Of a stretch of DNA of 42,087 bases, positions 9,409 to 42,087 are shown piece by piece. Position 1 is the stretch's first letter, and each line of letters begins with the position of its first letter. The notes beneath the pieces were generated by a model. It worked only from the letters and a program-made list of their open reading frames with translations. It did not search any database and was not told the DNA's origin. Origin of the DNA: a virus; the IMG/VR virus record IMGVR_UViG_3300023184_000242, positions 1 through 42,087 of that record, one strand, 5' to 3'. The position numbers were made by a program, and so were the translations under genes.

Positions 9409-9777
9409 ATGAACGCAGACACACTTAAAAAAATCATCAAATCAGCAGTAAAAGAAGCAATTCAAGAAGAATTGAAGGACATTTTATTAGAAGCTGTTAA
9501 AAGTAACAAACAGCCTATTAATGAATCATATCGATCTAATGATGATAGAACATTAAATTTTAACACAAATACTATACCTCATCAACAGTCTATAAAATCT
9601 CCAATTGATGCTAAAAAATCATATATGGACATTTTAAATGAAACAGCACAAGGATCCAAGTCAGGATTTGATGGTGAATTTAAAGTTAATGGTTCTGTAA
9701 ATACTATGTCTGAAGGAAGCGCACTTCCTGAAGGCCAACTTGGTTTAGATCAAATAATGAATTTAATTAAAAGATAA
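9409..9777 (+). CDS. Capsid-targeting-like leader protein in the baseplate operon
   Basis: The 122-aa product starts MNADTLKKIIKSAVKEAIQE, followed by ELKDILLEAVKSN; Leu-Leu-Glu-Ala at residues 26-29 fits the (L/I)xE|A cut. The body is Ser/Asn/Gly-rich, with KSYMDILNETAQGSKSGFDG (66-85) containing another Ile-Leu-Asn-Glu. The C-terminus is a helix, LGLDQIMNLIKR. It is unusual for a packaged-type leader to lie inside a baseplate operon, directly before gp25 (TAATG overlap). It may instead be a virion protein whose helix only resembles the leaders. Confidence 0.7.
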   Translation: MNADTLKKIIKSAVKEAIQEELKDILLEAVKSNKQPINESYRSNDDRTLNFNTNTIPHQQSIKSPIDAKKSYMDILNETAQGSKSGFDGEFKVNGSVNTMSEGSALPEGQLGLDQIMNLIKR

Positions 9778-24920: not shown

Positions 24921-25886
24921 ATGATTTCACTAGTACAACTTTTACAGGAAATATGTATCTTTGAAGGAGGAAATGTTTTTGGTACTACATCATCTATTAA
25001 AAAAGAAAACATACAACCAACCTTAAAAAAATTTATAATAGAATTAAAACAAATTTACCCAAAAGTAGATTTTAAATTTAACACATTAGGTTCTGTTGGT
25101 AAAAAAGATGAATCTGGAGATATTGACTTAGGTATGAGTGTTGACCAATTTATAACTAAAGATGGTACACCACTACTAGATAATTGGAACATTGATAAAG
25201 CAGAATTTGACGCTTTATATGAAAAAATAAGAAAACGTACAAGATCAGCTACTGAAACTCAAAGTAAATTAAGAGCTATGTTAGAATTAGCAGCTATAGA
25301 TATTGAAAAAAATTCACAGTTTATAAACACTGACATTAAAGCAGCAGGTGGTGGTTCAATATTTTGTATGTTTCCTCAATTTGATAAAGAGAATAAAGAA
25401 CTACCTGAAAAATCAGTACAAATAGATATTAATGTAGGCAACTTAGATTGGTTAACTTTCAGTTACTATTCAAATACATATAAAGATAATGTTAAAGGTT
25501 TACATAGAACACAGTTAATGTTAGCTATGTTTCAAGCCTTAAATATGATGTTTAAACATAGTACTGGTGTTACTTCAAAAACGACAGGAGAAACTTTAGC
25601 AACAAATTCTCAAGAAGCAATAAATGTATTAAATAAAGGCTTCAATCTTAGTTTATCTCAAGATATATTAAATGACTATTTTGAATTAATGAATGCTTTA
25701 AAGAAAAATTTACCTAAAGAAAAGTTAAATCAAATACTAGATATATATTTAAAAATATTAGATTCAACAAGAGCAGATATCCCATTTGATATACAAGACT
25801 ATTGGATTGCAAATCAAGAACGTTTAGGATTAAAAGGTAAATTTTTACCAGACAATTCTAACTTAACTAAATATAAAAAAGTATAA
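24921..25886 (+). CDS. Putative packaged nucleotidyltransferase
   Basis: This 321-aa protein begins MISLVQLLQEICIFEGG, a leader of the MIKLL type ending Ile-Phe-Glu|Gly at residues 13-16. The enzyme part carries LGSVGKKDESGDIDLGMS (56-73): the Gly-Ser helix start and the Asp67-x-Asp69 pair of the polymerase-beta-type nucleotidyltransferase fold. A third acidic position is likely in QIDINVG (about residues 173-179). Substrates of this superfamily range from tRNA to proteins and antibiotics, so none can be named. It overlaps the polyprotein gene, which starts with a second nucleotidyltransferase domain, by TAATG. The pair may act together. Confidence 0.75.
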   Translation: MISLVQLLQEICIFEGGNVFGTTSSIKKENIQPTLKKFIIELKQIYPKVDFKFNTLGSVGKKDESGDIDLGMSVDQFITKDGTPLLDNWNIDKAEFDALYEKIRKRTRSATETQSKLRAMLELAAIDIEKNSQFINTDIKAAGGGSIFCMFPQFDKENKELPEKSVQIDINVGNLDWLTFSYYSNTYKDNVKGLHRTQLMLAMFQALNMMFKHSTGVTSKTTGETLATNSQEAINVLNKGFNLSLSQDILNDYFELMNALKKNLPKEKLNQILDIYLKILDSTRADIPFDIQDYWIANQERLGLKGKFLPDNSNLTKYKKV

Positions 25887-28800
25887 TGTCAGGATCAATA
25901 GGAGCAAATAGAATTCCAAGAGCTGCAGTTGAAACTACTCTTAAAGCATACATTGATAAAGTGCTGAAAAAATTCCCTGGATTTAAATCAGCTAAAATAT
26001 CAGGTTCATATAACACTACAGTAAAACCAGATCATGGTGACATTGATTTAGTTATTAATATTGAAGGAGACGAACAAGATAGAAAAAAACTTAAACAAAA
26101 TTTTGCAGCATATATATCATCATTGCCAGATGATATAACTATTCCTTTTACATCTGGTCGACATGTTGGCAAAAAAGCAGCCGGTACAGGAGACATAGTA
26201 ATAGTACAATTTGCTATTGAAGGTTATCCTGACTTAACAGTTCAAATAGACAACATGATTGTTGCTTCTGAACAGGAAAGTGAATATAGAAAAAGTTTTT
26301 TAGATTTACCTGCTGAAAAACAAGGTTTGTTGGTTGGTTTAGCTAAAGCTCAATTGTTAGAAGAAGATCCAATAGAAATATTTAAACGTTTAGGAATTAC
26401 TAACATTCCTAAATTAGACAAAAATCAAGAACTTGAATTCAATTTATCAAATAAAGGCTTAACATTACGTTTAGTTACATTAGGAGATAATTTTAAAGAA
26501 TTAGGACGAAACGAAATATGGACTTCATTTAATTGGAGTGATGTAGAAAAATTATTTAAAGATTATAAACTAGATGGAACCTGGGAAGAATTATTAGAAT
26601 CTATTAATTCTAAATTAAAAAATTCCCGTTCACGAAATCGTGTAAAAGGAATATTTAACTCATTAGTAGTAATAAATGCTGGTGAAGCAGGAACTGATAA
26701 AGGTAATAACAAATTAAAAGCAAAAAAGACAGTTGATAATCTCTTAGAAAATATGTTGTTTAAAGGTTTAGTTAAAGAACTAATTATGCCACTATTAGAA
26801 GATGAATTTCAAGAAACAATAGCTATATATCCAGGTAAGTTTAAACCTCCACATAAAGGACATTTTGAAGTAGCTAAACAATTAATTGGTAAAGTAGATA
26901 AAATAATTATAGCAATATCTGCTAAAGAACATGATGGCATAACTGCTCAACAAAGTGAAGCAGTATGGAAATTGTACAATACACTATTAGATGGAAAACT
27001 TGACATAGAAATAATTAAAGGTGCTCCTGTAGGATATGTACTTGATACTATTAAAGAAAATCCAAATAATCACTATGTAGCAGTATATGGTAAAGGAGAG
27101 GAAGGTAGATATAAAGCTATAGGTAAAGATCCTCGCTATATGAACGCTGAAATATTTGATGGAGGAACAGCAGAAGATGAAGAAGGTAAAATAGATGCTT
27201 CAAATTTAAGAATAGCATTAAATAAAAATAAAAATATATCTAAATTTTTACCTAAAGGTATTACTCCTGAAGAATACAAACAAGCATTAGGACTTTCATT
27301 AAATGAATTAGAAGATTATGAAATTAAATATTGGGCTTTACACGCTGATCTTTACAAAGCTTTAAAAGATAATCCAGATAAAGAATATGAAATTTTAAAA
27401 AATGAATTAAAAGGAGAGAGACTTAAAGCCTTAAATTATTTTTATTATAGTTATCTTGCTAAAGATGCACCTAAGAAGATTAATGAAGATAAAGAACAAA
27501 AACTTCGAATATTTGACTTTGACGATACATTAGCTCATGTTAATGCTACAATATATATAACTCATAAAGATGGAACAGAGGAAGAACTTACACCAGCAGA
27601 ATATGCTGTATATGAACCACAACCTGGTGACACATCAAACTTTAGAGAATTTAATGCTGTTATTAAAAATGCATCACCTATAGAAAAAAACATAAATTTA
27701 CTCAAACAAGCTGCTTCTGATTCAAACACTAGAGTTACAATATTAACAGCTCGTGGATTAGGCTATCCAGTTAGCAAATATTTAAAAGATAAATTTAATT
27801 TAGACATTTATGTAGTAGCATTAGGCAGTAGTGATCCACAAAAGAAAGCAGAATACATAGAAGATCAAATTGAAAAAGGATATTCAGACATTGAATTTAT
27901 TGATGACTCAACAAAAAATGTAAATGCTGTCAATCAATTAAAATTAAAATATCCAGACATAAGATTAAACGCAGAAATAGCTGAAAATATACTCCTTGAA
28001 AATACATCATTTCAACTACCTGATTTCAAAACACATTTAACATCTTTAACTAAATATATGGTTGATCAAGGTATGAACATTAAACCATATCCTACGTTAA
28101 AAATCATAAATAACGATTTTAAAAACGCTGAAAACATGTTAGGTAAAACAGCATATTATGATCCAACTAATTGTTCAATCACTTTATACACATTAAATAG
28201 ACATCCAAAAGACATATTGCGTTCATATGCTCATGAAATGATTCACCGCATGCAAGATAATGAAGGTAGATTGAAAAATATTACTACTACTAACACCAAT
28301 GAAGATGGAGATTTAGAAGAATTAGAAAAAGAAGCATATTTAAAAGGTAACATGTGTTTTAGAAATTGGGAAGACACTATCAAAACTCCATTAAATGAAT
28401 GGGTTGCAAATATTTTAAAATATAATTACACTCCAAAGCTTTCAAATAAAATTTTTTCTCAACTTCATGAATTAAAAGTAAATGAAATAGCTCTTAATTC
28501 AAACAATGCTGTTGAAATATATGGAAATTTAACCAATGGAGATTTTACTGTAGGAGAACATGATTATAATTACAGAATAATAAAATTAGATAAAAATCCA
28601 TACAACAGTAACTTATTTTACAACATTGATTTTCATGAAATAGGAAATAAAAATCCTAATCCTTCTTCACCAACAGGAAATGCTAAGGAAAACTACATAA
28701 AAATACTATCAACTATGTATAAAATTATATTAGATTTTACTAAAGAAGAAAAACCAGAATATATAGGAATATCAAGTTTAGACGAAAGTGGATATGGAAA

Positions 28801-28927
28801 TATTTACAATAACTTAACTAAAACAAATAAAATTCCAGACTACTCCAGAAAAGATGCAGGTTTACAATTTAAAGATAAAGATGGAAAAACTGGAAAGTTT
28901 ATAATATTAAAAAGAAATAAAATATAA
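25886..28927 (+). CDS. Multidomain packaged polyprotein: nucleotidyltransferase, NMN/cytidylyltransferase-like, HAD, HExxH peptidase
   Basis: The 1013-aa protein has domains in this order. (1) About 15-135: nucleotidyltransferase, SGSYNTTVKPDHGDIDLVIN, with Asp52/Asp54. (2) About 312-455: nucleotidylyl transferase with YPGKFKPPHKGH (315-326, the HxGH site). (3) About 538-690: HAD hydrolase with DFDDT (544-548), TILTARG (618-624) and FIDDS (671-675). (4) About 710-850: HEMIH (783-787), a zinc peptidase HExxH motif. (5) About 865-1013: unassigned, GNAT-like at best. Between (1) and (2) lies ENMLFKGLVKELIMPLLEDE (288-307), a leader-like helix ending Leu-Leu-Glu|Asp. Before (3) comes Ile-Asn-Glu|Asp (532-535), and before (4) AEIAENILLENTSF (696-709, Leu-Leu-Glu|Asn). 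The linkers look like prohead protease sites, so it may be cut into separate enzymes. No leader is seen at its own N-terminus. Confidence 0.75.
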   Translation: MSGSIGANRIPRAAVETTLKAYIDKVLKKFPGFKSAKISGSYNTTVKPDHGDIDLVINIEGDEQDRKKLKQNFAAYISSLPDDITIPFTSGRHVGKKAAGTGDIVIVQFAIEGYPDLTVQIDNMIVASEQESEYRKSFLDLPAEKQGLLVGLAKAQLLEEDPIEIFKRLGITNIPKLDKNQELEFNLSNKGLTLRLVTLGDNFKELGRNEIWTSFNWSDVEKLFKDYKLDGTWEELLESINSKLKNSRSRNRVKGIFNSLVVINAGEAGTDKGNNKLKAKKTVDNLLENMLFKGLVKELIMPLLEDEFQETIAIYPGKFKPPHKGHFEVAKQLIGKVDKIIIAISAKEHDGITAQQSEAVWKLYNTLLDGKLDIEIIKGAPVGYVLDTIKENPNNHYVAVYGKGEEGRYKAIGKDPRYMNAEIFDGGTAEDEEGKIDASNLRIALNKNKNISKFLPKGITPEEYKQALGLSLNELEDYEIKYWALHADLYKALKDNPDKEYEILKNELKGERLKALNYFYYSYLAKDAPKKINEDKEQKLRIFDFDDTLAHVNATIYITHKDGTEEELTPAEYAVYEPQPGDTSNFREFNAVIKNASPIEKNINLLKQAASDSNTRVTILTARGLGYPVSKYLKDKFNLDIYVVALGSSDPQKKAEYIEDQIEKGYSDIEFIDDSTKNVNAVNQLKLKYPDIRLNAEIAENILLENTSFQLPDFKTHLTSLTKYMVDQGMNIKPYPTLKIINNDFKNAENMLGKTAYYDPTNCSITLYTLNRHPKDILRSYAHEMIHRMQDNEGRLKNITTTNTNEDGDLEELEKEAYLKGNMCFRNWEDTIKTPLNEWVANILKYNYTPKLSNKIFSQLHELKVNEIALNSNNAVEIYGNLTNGDFTVGEHDYNYRIIKLDKNPYNSNLFYNIDFHEIGNKNPNPSSPTGNAKENYIKILSTMYKIILDFTKEEKPEYIGISSLDESGYGNIYNNLTKTNKIPDYSRKDAGLQFKDKDGKTGKFIILKRNKI

Positions 28928-30258: not shown

Positions 30259-30858
30259 ATGAATAAACAATTCGAAAACATGCAAAAATTGGCTTTTGGT
30301 AAAACACTTATCAATGAATCCACCAGAAAAATGACTAAATCTGCATTCACAACTCAAATTAAAGAAATGATTTTGAATGAAATGAATGAAGCTAAAAAGA
30401 AAAAAGATGAAAAAGCAGATGTAGCTCCTCAAGAAGATGTAGACATCAATGTTGACAGTGAAACTCCACCAGTGGAAATGCCTACAGATACAATGGCGCC
30501 AGAAGTTGGCAACACAGCTGACATTAATCCAACAGTAAAATCAATTCAAGATTCATTGCAAAAAGCATTTGCTCAAGCTAAAGAATTAGGTGACGCTAAA
30601 TTGACAACTCAAATTGGAAACACAATTACAATGCTTGTGAGAGATCAAGTATTAGGTGGTGGACAACAAGCAGTTGCTGAAGGTATGGAAGAAATGAACG
30701 ACGAAATATTTAAAAAAATAAGTGCAGCAGTTTCAGATGAAGATTATAATCGTTTCATAGATGCAGCTACTGCAATATCTGAGGATTTAATAAGTAAAGG
30801 CTTTGAAGCAGAAGATATTTATGACTATTTAAATAATATAACATTAAATGAAGCATAA
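30259..30858 (+). CDS. Conserved acidic phage protein, probably internal/virion
   Basis: A 199-aa protein: basic N-terminal helix MNKQFENMQKLAFGKTLINE (residues 1-20, ending Ile-Asn-Glu|Ser) and a second helix TQIKEMILNEMNEAKKKKDE. Next comes an acidic, Pro-rich linker (55-90), then a four-helix-like C-terminal domain (93-199). Both N-terminal helices fit the leader pattern. It heads the block that also carries the histone-like gene 30902. A head-internal or scaffold-like role is plausible. Confidence 0.65.
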   Translation: MNKQFENMQKLAFGKTLINESTRKMTKSAFTTQIKEMILNEMNEAKKKKDEKADVAPQEDVDINVDSETPPVEMPTDTMAPEVGNTADINPTVKSIQDSLQKAFAQAKELGDAKLTTQIGNTITMLVRDQVLGGGQQAVAEGMEEMNDEIFKKISAAVSDEDYNRFIDAATAISEDLISKGFEAEDIYDYLNNITLNEA

Positions 30859-35988: not shown

Positions 35989-38514
35989 ATGATAATAGAA
36001 AAAAACATACATAAATTTATAACACACATTGTAAACAATTTGTTTCCTCTTAACGAATATCAAGAGGGAGAAATAAAACTTTTAATAAATAAATTTAAGC
36101 AAGAAGCTGAAGATTTAAACATTGACATTAATGACACTCAACTTAGAAAATACATTGAACGTTTTGACCAATTAAAAGATTCTTCTAAAATAGAAGATAA
36201 AAACTTACGCAACTATCCTTTAAGTAAACTAATAAAATTAGTTACATCATCAAAAGGTGCAGATGTTGAAGATGAAGAAACAGGTCCAGATGTAGTATAC
36301 AGTGAAAATGGCATTACAGTTTACAGTGGAGCAAATGAAGAATTATGTCAAAGACATAGATCTGAGGTTCCATGGTGTATTACTAAAAGTGCTTTTGGAA
36401 ATTACAGATACAGTAAAGACAGAGGATTTCCATCATTTTACCTAATAAAAAATGACACAGATGAATATAGGGATAATGAAAAATTAAGTTTTGTAGCAAT
36501 TCAAGTTAGAGATGGTTCATTTCCAACAAATAAAAAATACATTTGGACTCCTAAAGATAATCGACCAAATGAATCTGAACCAATGGGTTGGAGTAAATTA
36601 ACATCAGATATTCCATGGTTAACTCAAATTCCAAACATTGAAAATATACTTAAATACATTCCTTTATCTTCTACTGAAAAAGCTACTCAATTATATGGTA
36701 AAGATGAAATAACAATACGTGAATGGTCTAATCTTCCTTTTGAAATAAAAAAACAATATTTAGTAATTAGAAAAGAACTTACAATACTATTTAAAGATAT
36801 TACTATAGATGAGTTTGTGTCAAAATATTTACCAAAATACCCTCAAATAGCTACATTTATAGCTACAAATGCTGGTGTAATTGCTCCTAAAATATTAGTT
36901 AAAAATTTAGATAAATTTTCCAATAATGATAGAAAATCTATTATTGAAAACTTAAGAGAATCATTTAAAACTGATGAATTAAGTAAAGATTTTCTTCCAT
37001 TTGACGTAAAATTACTATTAACAAAATTAAAAAAATGGAATCTTGGCTCAGATGAAAGAATATACATTACTAAAAATAATGAAGCTATAGTCAAACTAAG
37101 ATTTACATCAGGTGATGTTCAAATGGGAATATTTACAGCAGAAGATGAATATCCAAATGTCAAATTAAACACTCGTACCTCAAAGTACTTACTTGACTAT
37201 CCAGAAATAGATGAAATTCCATTCAATACTCTTATTAAACTAACAAATGATGAAGCAATTGATAAAAGTTTTATTGAAAAAGTAATAGTAAAAGCCGAAG
37301 AAGATCCAAACTCAGCTATAGTAATTAAAGATGTAGAAGATGGTAAAATATTATTAGATTCCAACACATTTACTTCTTATAAGATTAAAGATGGTAAAAT
37401 AAGTTCTATACCATTCAACGATGAAGAAGTACAAAACGTATTAAGTACAGAAACTAACAATACTGGTTTTCAAGAATCAGCTGTTAATTTAGTATTTCAA
37501 CAAAAAGATCTTTCACCTTCAATAGATAAAAATGCTTTTCTTAACATATTAAAAAATACTCCATACGATAAAAGAACAAAAGATGGTTCAGTAATATTAA
37601 TTGATGATAATCCAGAATCTACTAATCCAATATTTGCTATGCCAACTGAAATTCCATTTCGTATTAAAACTGGTTTTAGTTATGGAAGGGGGGATACTTG
37701 GAACCAATATTTTTCTAGAAACCAAGATTTAGATACGGACACAATTAAACCATATTTTAATTATTTAAGAAGTAAAAATGTAGGATTTAATGATGAAACA
37801 TTAATAAGATGGTTAGACAGCAGTTACACTGGTCTTTCTAAAAAAATAATATCATTAAATCCCCCTATGGAACCAAATAGTATATACTATCCAGCAGTAA
37901 TTGGAGATAAATATGTACTTATCAACAAAAGCAATCCAGCAGCAAGTAAAGCAATAGGTAAAAATAATACATTTGTTAGAGCAAATATACCTCTAAGTGT
38001 AGCAAGAGAAATAACAGGTGTAGGAGCAGAACAAACTCCTAGAGCGCCTAGAACACCAAGACCTACAACTCCTCAAGCAGCAGTGGCGCCTAATACTACA
38101 GTAAACAATGTACTTGATTTTAATGGATTAACAGCAGGATTTAATAGTTTACCAACAAGTATAAAATCTAGAATAGGAGGAGGAGACATTGTTCCTTACA
38201 ATAGACGTAATGCATCAGTAGACGCAATAGGTAGAGTTCGAACATTTATACAAAATGGACAAAGCAAATTTTACATAATCAGACTTAATAGTGGAACAAT
38301 GATTGGTTTTGCCACCATGCAACCTGACGCTAGACATTATATAGTAACTGCTACTACTTCCTATCAAGTGCCAAGAGTAGGCCAACTAGCATCAGTGTTA
38401 CAACAGCGAAATATATCTGAAGGAACAAAAACAGCATTAAAAATGCACGCTGCTGCTTATCCTGAAGAAGCAAATGAAATAAAGAAAATTTTACAAAAAT
38501 TAAAAATAAAATGA
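35989..38514 (+). CDS. Large conserved phage protein with WCI-type domain
   Basis: An 841-aa protein. The start MIIEKNIHKFITHIVNNLFP, then LNE|Y, is compatible with the leader pattern. Residues about 95-190 hold the block VVYSENGITVYSGANEELCQ, then EVPWCITKSAFGNYRYSK and SFYLIKND. This 'y.e.g..vy...n.......g....WCI......y..y......fyli.d' signature occurs in many large phage proteins and has no known activity. The rest is a long alpha/beta series, a Pro/Arg/Ala-rich linker (TPRAPRTPRPTTPQAAVAPN, about 683-702) and a C-terminal domain (705-841). The linker suggests two separable parts. Probably packaged cargo or a large virion protein. Confidence 0.6.
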   Translation: MIIEKNIHKFITHIVNNLFPLNEYQEGEIKLLINKFKQEAEDLNIDINDTQLRKYIERFDQLKDSSKIEDKNLRNYPLSKLIKLVTSSKGADVEDEETGPDVVYSENGITVYSGANEELCQRHRSEVPWCITKSAFGNYRYSKDRGFPSFYLIKNDTDEYRDNEKLSFVAIQVRDGSFPTNKKYIWTPKDNRPNESEPMGWSKLTSDIPWLTQIPNIENILKYIPLSSTEKATQLYGKDEITIREWSNLPFEIKKQYLVIRKELTILFKDITIDEFVSKYLPKYPQIATFIATNAGVIAPKILVKNLDKFSNNDRKSIIENLRESFKTDELSKDFLPFDVKLLLTKLKKWNLGSDERIYITKNNEAIVKLRFTSGDVQMGIFTAEDEYPNVKLNTRTSKYLLDYPEIDEIPFNTLIKLTNDEAIDKSFIEKVIVKAEEDPNSAIVIKDVEDGKILLDSNTFTSYKIKDGKISSIPFNDEEVQNVLSTETNNTGFQESAVNLVFQQKDLSPSIDKNAFLNILKNTPYDKRTKDGSVILIDDNPESTNPIFAMPTEIPFRIKTGFSYGRGDTWNQYFSRNQDLDTDTIKPYFNYLRSKNVGFNDETLIRWLDSSYTGLSKKIISLNPPMEPNSIYYPAVIGDKYVLINKSNPAASKAIGKNNTFVRANIPLSVAREITGVGAEQTPRAPRTPRPTTPQAAVAPNTTVNNVLDFNGLTAGFNSLPTSIKSRIGGGDIVPYNRRNASVDAIGRVRTFIQNGQSKFYIIRLNSGTMIGFATMQPDARHYIVTATTSYQVPRVGQLASVLQQRNISEGTKTALKMHAAAYPEEANEIKKILQKLKIK

Positions 38515-38759
38515 AACTAGACGAATTAAAAAAAATTATCAAGGAGGAATTAAAGTCAATTTTAGAAGCAAACACTCCTGAAAAAAAACCAGGTACAAAA
38601 GAAGCACCTCCAAAAGAAAAACCAGGCACAACTCCAAAACGTAGAGGATTTGATAAACCTGAACCAGGTGTAAATCCAAAACCAAAAGCATCTTTAAAAG
38701 AAACTGAAAAAAATCTAGTAAATAAAATTACAGCTCGTTTTTTAAAATCTAAAAAATAA
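38511..38759 (+). CDS. Small basic packaged protein with capsid-targeting-like leader
   Basis: The 82-aa product is a leader plus a basic, Pro/Lys-rich body: MKLDELKKIIKEELKSILEA (Ile-Leu-Glu|Ala at residues 17-20), then repeats of 'KKPGTKEAPP', 'EKPGTTPKRRG' and 'KPEPGVNPKPK', and a final helix with KITARFLKSKK. The mature part would be a positively charged peptide, like the small basic internal proteins of T4 heads. It probably binds the packaged DNA. It overlaps 35989 by 4 nt (ATGA) and 38759 by TAATG. Confidence 0.75.
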   Translation: MKLDELKKIIKEELKSILEANTPEKKPGTKEAPPKEKPGTTPKRRGFDKPEPGVNPKPKASLKETEKNLVNKITARFLKSKK

Positions 38760-39794: not shown

Positions 39795-40331
39795 GTGATT
39801 AAACTATTAAACATATTAAAAGAAACATTATTAGAAAGTGATCCTAAAACAGGTACAGGTAAAAAACCTAAAGGATCAGGTCGTCGCTTATACACAGATG
39901 AAAATCCAAATGATACTGTGTCTATTAAGTTTAAAACTAAAGAAGATATAGTTGACACATTAAATAAAGATTCATTTAAGACTAAATCACACGTTCGTCA
40001 ATCACAAATTATCAATTTAATTCATCAACGTGTTAGAGCATCATACAATAAAGCTAAAGATTCTGAAGTAAAATCTCGTTTAAAACGTGCTTTAGACTAT
40101 ATTGAAAAACGTAAAGAAGCATCTAAAGCAAAAACAGAACGTTTGCGTAAATTAAAAGAAACATCAGATCCACAATCAGGTAAAGCAGCACCATATGGTT
40201 CTGGTTATGCTCCTATTAAAAATACAAATTTAGAAGAAGATACACTTACAGAAAAATGTTGGAAAGGATACACTCAAAAAGGTATGAAAACAATGTTTGG
40301 TAAAAAATATCCAAACTGTGTGAAAAAGTAA
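39795..40331 (+). CDS. Packaged two-module protein with capsid-targeting-like leader (GTG start)
   Basis: The start is GTG at 39795: it gives the full leader (M)IKLLNILKETLLE|S (Leu-Leu-Glu-Ser, 12-15), while no in-frame ATG precedes it. The 178-aa product has a main domain (16-125) with KTGTGKKPKGSGRRLYTDEN and SHVRQSQIINLIHQRVRASY, a conserved phage domain of unknown function, then a linker and, after Leu-Thr-Glu|Lys (about 151-154), a short module KCWKGYTQKGMKTMFGKKYP with NCV. The 'CW.GY...G.K......PNCV' unit is a small module I recall from the ends of many aquatic phage proteins. The second site would separate the two modules. Confidence 0.75.
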   Translation: MIKLLNILKETLLESDPKTGTGKKPKGSGRRLYTDENPNDTVSIKFKTKEDIVDTLNKDSFKTKSHVRQSQIINLIHQRVRASYNKAKDSEVKSRLKRALDYIEKRKEASKAKTERLRKLKETSDPQSGKAAPYGSGYAPIKNTNLEEDTLTEKCWKGYTQKGMKTMFGKKYPNCVKK

Positions 40332-40363: not shown

Positions 40364-40735
40364 ATGAACACAGAATTTTTAAAACTAGTATCGTACTTGT
40401 TCCACTCATCAACACAAGTTCATGTATTCCATCTTCAAACAAAGTCATACGCTGAACATAAAGCGTTAAATAAGTATTATGACGGAATAGTTGATTTAAC
40501 AGATAGTTTAATTGAGTCTTTTCAAGGCAAATATAATATCTTAACAGGATATGAAAACTATGCTTTAGACGACTATAAAGACAATGCTCAAACTATCGTA
40601 TACTTTAAAGCATTATTAAAAACAGTAGAAACCTTAAGAACATCAGTATCAAGCGATTCATATTTGCAAAATCAAATTGACACTATAATCGAGTTAATTA
40701 CATCTACTTTGTATAAATTAAGATTTTTACATTAA
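40364..40735 (+). CDS. Dps/ferritin-like helical phage protein
   Basis: A 123-aa all-helical protein: LVSYLFHSSTQVHVFHLQTK, then SYAEHKALNKYYDGIVDLTD (residues 7-46). The spacing of His, Glu-His and Asp in the first two helices (H...H..HLQT.S.AEHKAL..YYD) resembles the metal site of Dps/ferritin-like four-helix bundles, and the length is close to a minimal bundle. Conserved phage relatives of unknown function have this same start. It could bind iron or protect DNA, but the metal site is inferred from spacing only. No capsid-targeting leader is visible. Confidence 0.7.
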   Translation: MNTEFLKLVSYLFHSSTQVHVFHLQTKSYAEHKALNKYYDGIVDLTDSLIESFQGKYNILTGYENYALDDYKDNAQTIVYFKALLKTVETLRTSVSSDSYLQNQIDTIIELITSTLYKLRFLH

Positions 40736-40746
40736 TATAAAACACA

Positions 40747-41064
40747 ATGATAAAACTACTCCAACTATTAACTGAAGCTAAAGAAAGCTTTGAACAATTT
40801 GCTAGTACCAGACTAAAAGGTGCTGAAAAAATAGCTGACACTACTCAAGAAGCAGGTGGACTATCTTTATTAACTTACAAACACTATAAAGTTAAATTAC
40901 CATACTATAAAAAAGCAGCAGCAGGTAAATTAGACAAAGAAGCTGCTAAAAAAGAATTTAATGAAACTTTAAAAAGTATTTCATTAAACATGACTCAAAA
41001 TGAATTTCAAACTGAAATGGGACGTTTAGAGGTATTAGGAGAATTATTAATAAGAGAAAAATAA
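40747..41064 (+). CDS. Putative packaged protein with MIKLL-type leader
   Basis: A 105-aa protein that starts MIKLLQLLTEAKESFEQFAS; Leu-Thr-Glu|Ala at residues 8-11 is a textbook-like T4 prohead protease site. The mature part (95 aa) is helical, with ASTRLKGAEKIADTTQEAGG (19-38), then LSLLTYKHYKVKLPYYKKAA, a Lys-rich stretch, and a C-terminal helix. No fold is recognised. The gene overlaps the next one by TAATG and belongs to a run of three genes sharing the same leader. Confidence 0.78.
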   Translation: MIKLLQLLTEAKESFEQFASTRLKGAEKIADTTQEAGGLSLLTYKHYKVKLPYYKKAAAGKLDKEAAKKEFNETLKSISLNMTQNEFQTEMGRLEVLGELLIREK

Positions 41065-41489
41065 TGATAAAACTTATAAACATATTAAGCGAAGCTGAAC
41101 TAAATAAATGTCCTGCTCCAACTCAAAACATTGAACTTAATCTTCAAAATAGACAAAAGGCAATTAATGAGTATGGTTATGGACCTTTAAATCCAAATAA
41201 ACCAAATGATAAATTTTGGCAAGCTAAAGTAGACATGTGGAAGCTTGATTCTGTAGAAGAAGCTAAATCATCTCGTTGTGGTAATTGTGCAGCTTTTGAT
41301 CAAACAACTAAAACATTAGATTGCATTGCCAAAGGTATTGGAAACGATGAAGGATCAGAAAATCCATATGATGTTATTGATGCAGGACAATTAGGATATT
41401 GTAGATTTTTAAAATTTAAATGTGCCGCTGCTCGAACTTGTGACGCTTGGGTTGTTGGTGGTCCTTTAACAGATAATAAAACTGTATGA
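41064..41489 (+). CDS. Putative packaged Cys-rich (metal-binding) protein
   Basis: The 141-aa protein has the leader MIKLINILSE|A (Leu-Ser-Glu-Ala, 8-11). The mature domain contains six closely placed cysteines: SRCGNCAAFD (about 71-80), LDCIAKG, GYCRFLKFKCAAARTCDAWV (about 115-134). The pattern C-x2-C ... C ... C-x5/6-C-x4-C suggests a metal or iron-sulfur site; it resembles high-potential iron-sulfur-type folds by eye, without proof. Such domains recur in aquatic phages. It overlaps the next gene by 4 nt (ATGA). A redox or structural factor carried in the head is a possible role. Confidence 0.75.
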   Translation: MIKLINILSEAELNKCPAPTQNIELNLQNRQKAINEYGYGPLNPNKPNDKFWQAKVDMWKLDSVEEAKSSRCGNCAAFDQTTKTLDCIAKGIGNDEGSENPYDVIDAGQLGYCRFLKFKCAAARTCDAWVVGGPLTDNKTV

Positions 41490-42087
41490 TTAAACTAGTA
41501 GAAATATTACAAGACATTTTGGCTGAAAAGAAGCTATGCCCTAAAGGTAGAGCGTACTATAATCGTCGTAGAGCAGCAGGTGAAAAACCTTCAGCTTATC
41601 TTTCTGGTCGTTCTGTCAAAGTGTGTAAAGGATTAATGGAAGAAGATGATTTAGATTTACATGAATCACTTCGTGATTGGTTTAAAAAAGAAGATTGGGT
41701 TAGAATTGACACACAAGGTAACATTACAGGCCCATGTGGTACAATGAAAAAAGGTAAAAAAACAACTCGTTGTTTACCTCGTGCTAAAGCAAACAGCTTA
41801 ACTAAAGCTGAAAGAGCAGCCACATCACAGAAAAAAGCAGCATCAGACAAACAATTTGTGCCTAACACTAAAAAAGCTAAAGTAAAACTTACAGAATTAA
41901 GACAAATTATTTATAATATAATTAATGAATCATTACATTTAAATGAAGACAATATAGATGAATATGATGTTGAAAGTCCACAAGATGTAAAAGAATTTGT
42001 TCAGTTTATGCGAGAGTATAAACAACCTCTACATGAAGCAGAGTACCATGGTCGTAAAGTACAACTTGGCAAGCCAATGCAAGGTGA
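41486..42087 (+). CDS. Packaged polyprotein, several small modules (partial, open at right edge)
   Basis: The ATG at 41486 overlaps the upstream stop (ATGA). 200 codons are visible and the frame stays open. The leader is MIKLVEILQDILAE|K (12-15). Modules: KKLCPKGRAYYNRRRAAGEK (15-34) ending in KVCKG; after Leu-His-Glu|Ser (58-61) a basic unit SLRDWFKKEDWVRIDTQGNI, with two Cys and KANSLTKAERAAT (61-125), which resembles the phage family I know as DUF6321; then a second internal leader TELRQIIYNIINE|S (136-149); then Leu-His-Glu|Ala (182-185) and AEYHGRKVQLGKPMQG, the opening of another recurrent phage module (DUF5754-like). Family numbers are from memory. Confidence 0.72.
   Translation, partial: MIKLVEILQDILAEKKLCPKGRAYYNRRRAAGEKPSAYLSGRSVKVCKGLMEEDDLDLHESLRDWFKKEDWVRIDTQGNITGPCGTMKKGKKTTRCLPRAKANSLTKAERAATSQKKAASDKQFVPNTKKAKVKLTELRQIIYNIINESLHLNEDNIDEYDVESPQDVKEFVQFMREYKQPLHEAEYHGRKVQLGKPMQG

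Follow-up and report, generated by a model that had tools for sequence, protein, structure and literature searches.

A probable multi-module head-cargo polyprotein in a T4-related myovirus

Introduction

How do tailed phages place accessory proteins in their heads? In T4, capsid-targeting sequences span about ten residues, with positions 4 and 7 serving targeting and positions 8 and 10 processing; the first 10 residues of IPIII are enough for packaging, and an Asp at position 10 blocks processing but not targeting (PMC9026906). The prohead protease gp21 cleaves after L/I-X-E (PMC9026906), and gp24 (MAKINELLRE↓S, the arrow denoting a known or proposed cut here and below) loses its first 10 residues (PMC9958956). 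Comparable systems have also been described. Polyvalent proteins (Iyer et al. 2017, PMC5512222) are multi-domain chains that are likely packaged and delivered, typically with large effector domains and often their own peptidase. The ejection proteins of giant phages (phiKZ; gp53 and gp54 of SPN3US) are packaged and cut several times after short xxE motifs by a gp21-related protease. In cyanophages, long multi-module proteins of the T4-GC119/phrog_727 type (S-CREM2 gp160, S-SCSM1_29, Syn19_101) belong to a family without assigned function, whose processing is not described in the papers that we consulted.

Here, we analysed an open reading frame (ORF) at the right edge of a virus record of 42,087 nt (the whole stretch is referred to as the window), which contains T4-type baseplate wedge genes. 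An earlier note had read this ORF as a polyprotein in which two types of leader sit at module borders and double as processing linkers. Our reading, which we consider probable, is that it encodes a head-cargo polyprotein of a T4-related myovirus that would be targeted by its leader and cut by a gp21-type protease into three basic modules.

Results

Layout of the ORF

The frame opens with an ATG at 41486, which overlaps the stop of the preceding ORF (41064-41489), and stays open to 42085 (200 aa); as the contig (G000) ends at 42,087 nt, module 3 is truncated after 16 residues (Table 1). Upon re-reading, the MIKL leader, the two basic modules, the internal leader and the LHE↓A motif were all found where the earlier note had seen them, confirming a fused multi-module ORF with an internal leader. 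The N-terminal leader (MIKLVEILQD over its first ten residues) is a proposed capsid-targeting sequence carrying Asp at position 10, with a proposed cut after Glu14. The module 1 fragment that would extend to Glu52 comprises 38 aa (pI 10.3, net charge +8.7), and SLRDWF, the start of module 2, directly follows DLHE (residue 60). Further downstream, LHE↓A, with a putative cut after residue 184, precedes AEYHGRKVQLGKP. Contrary to the earlier note, the internal leader does not itself lie at the border of module 3: the acidic spacer SLHLNEDNIDEYDVESPQDVKEFVQFMREYKQP separates it from LHE↓A.

Table 1. Features of the ORF at 41486 and of leader-bearing genes upstream of it (positions in the window).
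Feature	Position	Strand	Compared with
N-terminal leader MIKLVEILQDILAE, residues 1-14; proposed capsid-targeting sequence	41486-41527	+	154 MIKL leaders
Module 1, KKLCPKG...VCKGLMEE, Cys/Arg-rich, starts at residue 15	41528-41644	+	
Acidic spacer DDLDLHE, proposed cleavage site LHE↓S at its end	41645-41665	+	28/29 contexts
Module 2, SLRDWF...KAKVKLTE, basic, 77 aa, pI 10.3	41666-41896	+	
Fusion junction, old C-terminus now KVKLTE↓	41887-41898	+	split relatives
Internal second-type leader LRQIIYNIINE↓S, residues 138-148	41897-41929	+	
Acidic spacer EYDVE..., ends LHE↓A	41930-42037	+	
Module 3, first 16 residues AEYHGRKVQLGKPMQG, rest past contig end	42038-42085	+	
Gene with leader MIKLINILSE↓A, Cys-rich passenger	41064-41489	+	
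Gene with leader MIKLLQLLTE↓A	40747-41064	+	
Gene with leader (V)IKLLNILKETLLE↓S, C-terminal module 5 LTE↓KCWKGYTQKGMKTMFGKKYPNCVKK	39795-40331	+	
Gene with second-type leader MKLDELKKIIKEELKSILE↓A, basic Pro-rich passenger	38511-38759	+	

Origin of the internal leader by gene fusion

A search of viral contigs yielded 165 relatives, from which 80 loci were kept; all were retrieved through one protein, so the genomes are related. Most of these relatives are split, with gene 1 encoding modules 1 and 2 and ending in KAKVKLNK, followed a few bases on by gene 2, which has its own leader and module 3. Both the window and one relative, L005, lack 21 nt that are present in the split relatives (by DNA comparison, the 21 nt being counted by hand against L007), where this stretch holds the last codons of gene 1, its stop codon and the start codon (ATG) of gene 2. 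Gene 2 starts with MKITELRQLVKK... in L007 and with MKISELRQLIKE... in L015; the window reads KLTELRQIIYNIINE. Because this in-frame deletion removed the stop and the ATG, the internal leader is what was once the N-terminal leader of gene 2. The second leader that the earlier note had seen inside the protein is thus real, but its origin is simpler than that of a designed linker.

An ORF at a contig edge invites the suspicion of an assembly error. L005, however, stems from a different metagenome, is 81% identical to the window ORF, shares the same 21-nt deletion and encodes module 3 in full in an intact single frame of 271 aa, without the stop just past the edge that the earlier note had named as a refutation. 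The fusion is therefore real; an artefact was rejected on this evidence and strikes us as exceedingly improbable. The modules of L005 measure 39, 77 and 85 aa (pI 10.7-11.2), module 3 having a pI of 11.2, a charge of +22 and the C-terminal end RARHNCDNPGPRTKARYWSCRAW. Further single-chain versions occur in L009, L010, L034, L036 and L041, some with zinc-ribbon-like or other inserts between modules. Many close homologs are devoid of an internal leader, their halves being separate genes; the constant feature is the xxE↓A before module 3. As for the stand-alone modules with leaders of their own that the earlier note had proposed to look for, module 2 occurs by itself in L027, preceded by MIKLLDILNE, and module 3 is found as such on gene 2 of the split relatives.

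At the old C-terminus of gene 1, fused homologs read KVKLTE, KVKLKE, KVSLKE, KVSLNE or KVKINE, as opposed to KVKLNK-stop in split ones. By this comparison, an (L/I)xE motif has been created at the junction in nearly all fused homologs, through few events rather than one per sequence; the fused L034 has no [LIVM]xE there.

A short motif at module borders

Across the homologs, [LIVM]xE falls exactly at the border of modules 1, 2, 3 and 5 in 20/22, 28/29, 12/12 and 7/7 distinct contexts, respectively, i.e. in 67 of 70 over all four, although the border sequences counted are mutually related and the statistics overstate their independence. The background in the test on modules 1-3 was 0.031 per position, with values near zero at neighbouring offsets, which argues against chance even though a motif as short as that of gp21 also arises by chance. 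What lies upstream of the borders varies, from the leader or module 1 to a zinc ribbon or unrelated inserts. Sequence comparison hence supports the earlier proposal of a processing signal at module borders, which also fits the L/I-X-E specificity of T4 gp21; the conserved feature is, however, a site of three to four residues and not a full leader acting as linker.

Would such sites be used? The N-terminal leader might be a true capsid-targeting sequence that is removed, with the internal fusion being passive and the mature head protein a single multi-domain chain. In T4, the cuts in internal proteins indeed fall close to the termini and do not yield several retained domains (PMC9026906), and the coexistence of split and fused forms among close relatives could mean that separation does not matter. 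Yet a passive fusion would leave unexplained why, irrespective of the preceding sequence, [LIVM]xE stands exactly at the internal borders of modules 2, 3 and 5, and why almost every fused homolog has it at the former end of gene 1. We regard it as unlikely compared with the proposed release of separate modules.

Alternatively, the (L/I)xE residues might belong to the fold of the modules, capping a helix, instead of forming a protease site. The motif is nearly invariant, and a helix is predicted at the border of module 2 (model residues 61-67). On the other hand, the same motif is common to four unrelated modules, closes the leader at the N-terminus in 33 of the 35 clusters of passenger proteins (see below), and is missing where modules begin at Met in phages without gp21. 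In five phages lacking PF03420 (Kolga, Aegir, CRP-902, CRP-3 and HTVC106P), module 3 begins at Met, and in C75C1, likewise without PF03420, module 2 does so within one residue of the border (MGELKKW...). The gp21-encoding isolates HTVC008M and C48C1 read xxE↓AE[YF], module 3 following LEE↓A and LTE↓A, respectively. A role as helix cap thus appears improbable, and a protease site remains our favoured explanation.

Two further observations concern the modules. In Roseobacter phage CRP-6, gp55 (L134:1333-2022) consists of module 3 fused to an XkdF-type prohead protease domain (PF14550, E 7e-18), a profile match that links module 3 to head maturation in a phage without PF03420/gp21. In most homologs, the predicted cuts segregate basic modules from acidic spacers better than circular shifts of the cut pattern; random cuts at Glu were at least as good in a fraction of 0.03-0.26 in the closest homologs and of 0.75-0.81 in two. 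Not being clearly better than random cuts at Glu, charge segregation was dropped as proof of processing.

One leader on many passengers

To delineate the leader, ORFs in the loci were chosen on their first four residues only (M[IVF][KR]L; 154 distinct proteins). [LIVM]xE ends at residue 10 in 125/154 of these MIKL proteins versus 53/1076 other ORFs (95/112 without the largest passenger cluster), and by residue 16 it is present in 97% versus 31%. The passengers fall into 35 unrelated clusters, with the motif found in the majority of members in 31, and include a polyvalent-class ADP-ribosyltransferase (PF18760), ParB_N, phosphoribosyltransferase and P-loop proteins. One passenger (loci L002-L081) contains two ADP-ribosyltransferase-like stretches (PF18760, E 1e-27) with LNE↓T between them. 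The leader measures 10 residues in most relatives and 14 in the window; L4, I/L7 and L8 are nearly invariant over the 154 leaders, and Glu occupies position 10. Among leaders with Asp10, the type present in the window, 12/13 possess a second site at 13/14, compared with 45/126 among Glu10 leaders. Over all ORFs of two full genomes, the positional profile of (L/I)xE rises only slightly near residue 10, since few ORFs per genome bear the leader.

The likeness to the T4 capsid-targeting sequences (IPI-IPIII, Alt) and the gp24 propeptide extends to the length of about ten residues, the hydrophobic positions 4, 7 and 8, Glu10 and a putative (L/I)xE cut, as well as to the sharing of one leader by unrelated passengers and, in 10 of 12 relatives searched, the presence of gp21 and gp23 in the same genomes. 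The ADP-ribosyltransferase among the passengers is moreover reminiscent of the head-packaged Alt. Upon scoring ~269 T4 ORFs with a position matrix of the MIKL leader, gp24 ranked 1st-3rd and Alt 4th-11th, with IPII and IPIII reaching only ranks 17-34 and IPI 127-207 (no score).

Prohead protease and capsid protein in relatives

Among 12 relatives searched, 10 encode both gp21 (PF03420) and gp23 (PF07068), the other two being contigs of 56-74 kb. The protease gene is absent from the 42-kb window and we infer it from relatives; in two longer contigs (172 and 179 kb), the late region is colinear with the window. In the region corresponding to the T4 gp23 cut (FLTE↓A), the relatives' major capsid proteins carry LV[TVQ]E↓[AS], which makes the proposed specificity plausible for the protease of these phages. 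Five gp21 homologs display [LI][ST]E↓[GA] near their N-terminus.

Further leader genes and the question of destination

Besides the genes in Table 1, several ORFs of the window bear on the leader. The gene at 40364-40735 (+), encoding a DUF5856/phrog_858 protein, lies among the leader genes without having a leader itself; the T4 rI.-1 product carries the same name. At 30259-30858 (+), a 199-aa ORF contains LINE↓S and MNE↓A close to the N-terminus and ends ITLNE↓A-stop, a proposed cut site one residue short of the C-terminus. The ORF at 24921-25886 (+) starts MISLVQLLQEICIFE↓GGN and its homologs MIKLISIVKQILME↓GGNVFG, implying that either the leader has drifted or the start codon differs. Its neighbour at 25886-28927 (+) encodes a 1013-aa protein with matches to a DNA polymerase beta palm and a cytidylyltransferase; in relative G002, the cytidylyltransferase stands alone behind LLE↓A, and related NMNAT/cytidylyltransferases have been reported from cyanophage virions (PMC9602691). 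At the left edge, an ORF on the opposite strand (3-368, -) has a leader too (MIKLKDILKDILLE↓DIIE↓SSS).

The ORF at 9409-9777 (+), with counterparts in both full relatives, starts with a second-type leader (MNADTLKKIIKSAVKEAIQEELKDILLE↓A) directly before a baseplate wedge gene and between baseplate genes; the second-type leader may hence serve a virion part other than the head. Could leaders in general be docking helices for such a part (tail, baseplate) or for a host factor? The position of this ORF and the richness of the window region in tail genes would suit that idea. It is at odds with the ten-residue length, the register and Glu10, all of which fit T4 head targeting, with a polyvalent-class ADP-ribosyltransferase (PF18760) as passenger, akin to head-packaged Alt, and with the CRP-6 fusion of module 3 to a prohead protease domain. 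We give it little credence, and favour capsid targeting.

Cyanophage homologs and database matches

Module 5 occurs in ~100 cyanophage records, within long multi-module proteins of phrog_727 and related families. In S-CREM2 ORF160 (gp160), modules 2, 5 and 1 occur together, with LSE↓A, LEE↓K and ISE↓G in front of them, and 7 peptides of this protein were found in the proteome of purified virions (PMC10665884 Table 3). S-SCSM1_29 bears a virion-protein annotation, in a phage for which mass spectrometry identified 45 proteins (PMC9602691). Homologous modules do occur in cyanophage virions according to published proteomics. The likeness consists of related modules in one chain and of (L/I)xE at several borders. 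In contrast to the window, the examples compared have no MIKL leader, the chains are much longer and the borders looser (VTNE↓, FNE↓). Against cyanophage proteins, the module 5 profile matched strongly (E down to 1e-13) and that of module 2 weakly (E about 0.002); the module 1 profile gave no match, its resemblance around PSAYxSGxxVKC being seen by eye only.

The best PHROG match of module 2 was phrog_23735 (E 7e-15, residues 61-134), and its score against Pfam DUF5872 (PF19197) was 19.3 bits, below the curated cut-off of 27.5. Matches to phrog_727 were confined to module 2 (residues 51-146, E 4e-5) and to module 5 of the ORF at 39795 (E 3e-5) rather than spanning the full length. The full L005 protein had no match in Pfam, the PDB sequence search gave no credible match, and an AlphaFold model of L005 (mean pLDDT 58, pTM 0.28) returned no Foldseek match at E <= 0.001.

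Discussion

What might this ORF do for the phage? In the sequence of events that we propose, the precursor would be translated and its leader, acting as a capsid-targeting sequence, would direct it into the prohead core. A gp21-type prohead protease would then cut after (L/I)xE, leader and acidic spacers would be lost, and three separate, strongly basic modules would be released, kept in the head with the DNA and probably ejected with it. Targeting and cleavage are suggested by the sequence comparisons above, DNA binding and ejection by charge and the T4 precedent only. On the evolutionary side, two neighbouring genes, presumably for cargo, have fused, turning the leader of the second into an internal linker that still harbours putative cut sites.

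The principle, capsid targeting coupled to prohead proteolysis, is known from T4, where one leader precedes one mature body; here, by contrast, several modules share a chain, each with its own site, and leaders also occur internally. Polyvalent proteins resemble the present system in that an ART-PolyVal domain is found among the MIKL passengers, albeit in another MIKL protein, the ORF at 41486 containing no enzymatic domain; its modules are small and basic, and the putative protease is a separate prohead enzyme. Giant-phage ejection proteins differ in their motif (AxE in SPN3US) and in that the cuts remove N-terminal propeptides instead of separating retained modules (PMC10052503). In the literature that we searched, no description of a modular cargo polyprotein with a site at each border was found, which is limited evidence of novelty; as far as we found, the multi-module cargo polyprotein would be a new variation on this known principle.

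More broadly, aquatic T4-like phages might employ a plug-and-play cargo system, in which a short leader and (L/I)xE borders allow any module, single or as part of a chain, to enter the head and to be set free by the maturation protease, and in which modules shuffle freely between genes and phages; we put this forward as a tentative generalisation. T4 capsid targeting rests on a handful of proteins, whereas here a single leader is found on ~35 passenger groups in uncultured phages. If our interpretation is correct, the leader would furnish a list, obtained from sequence, of the proteins carried in the heads of aquatic T4-like phages and maybe injected, rendering the question of which proteins enter the cell along with the DNA testable. 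Among bacteriophages, the ORF described here would then exemplify a cargo polyprotein whose maturation depends on the capsid protease, and cyanophage virion proteins currently listed as unknown would gain a function.
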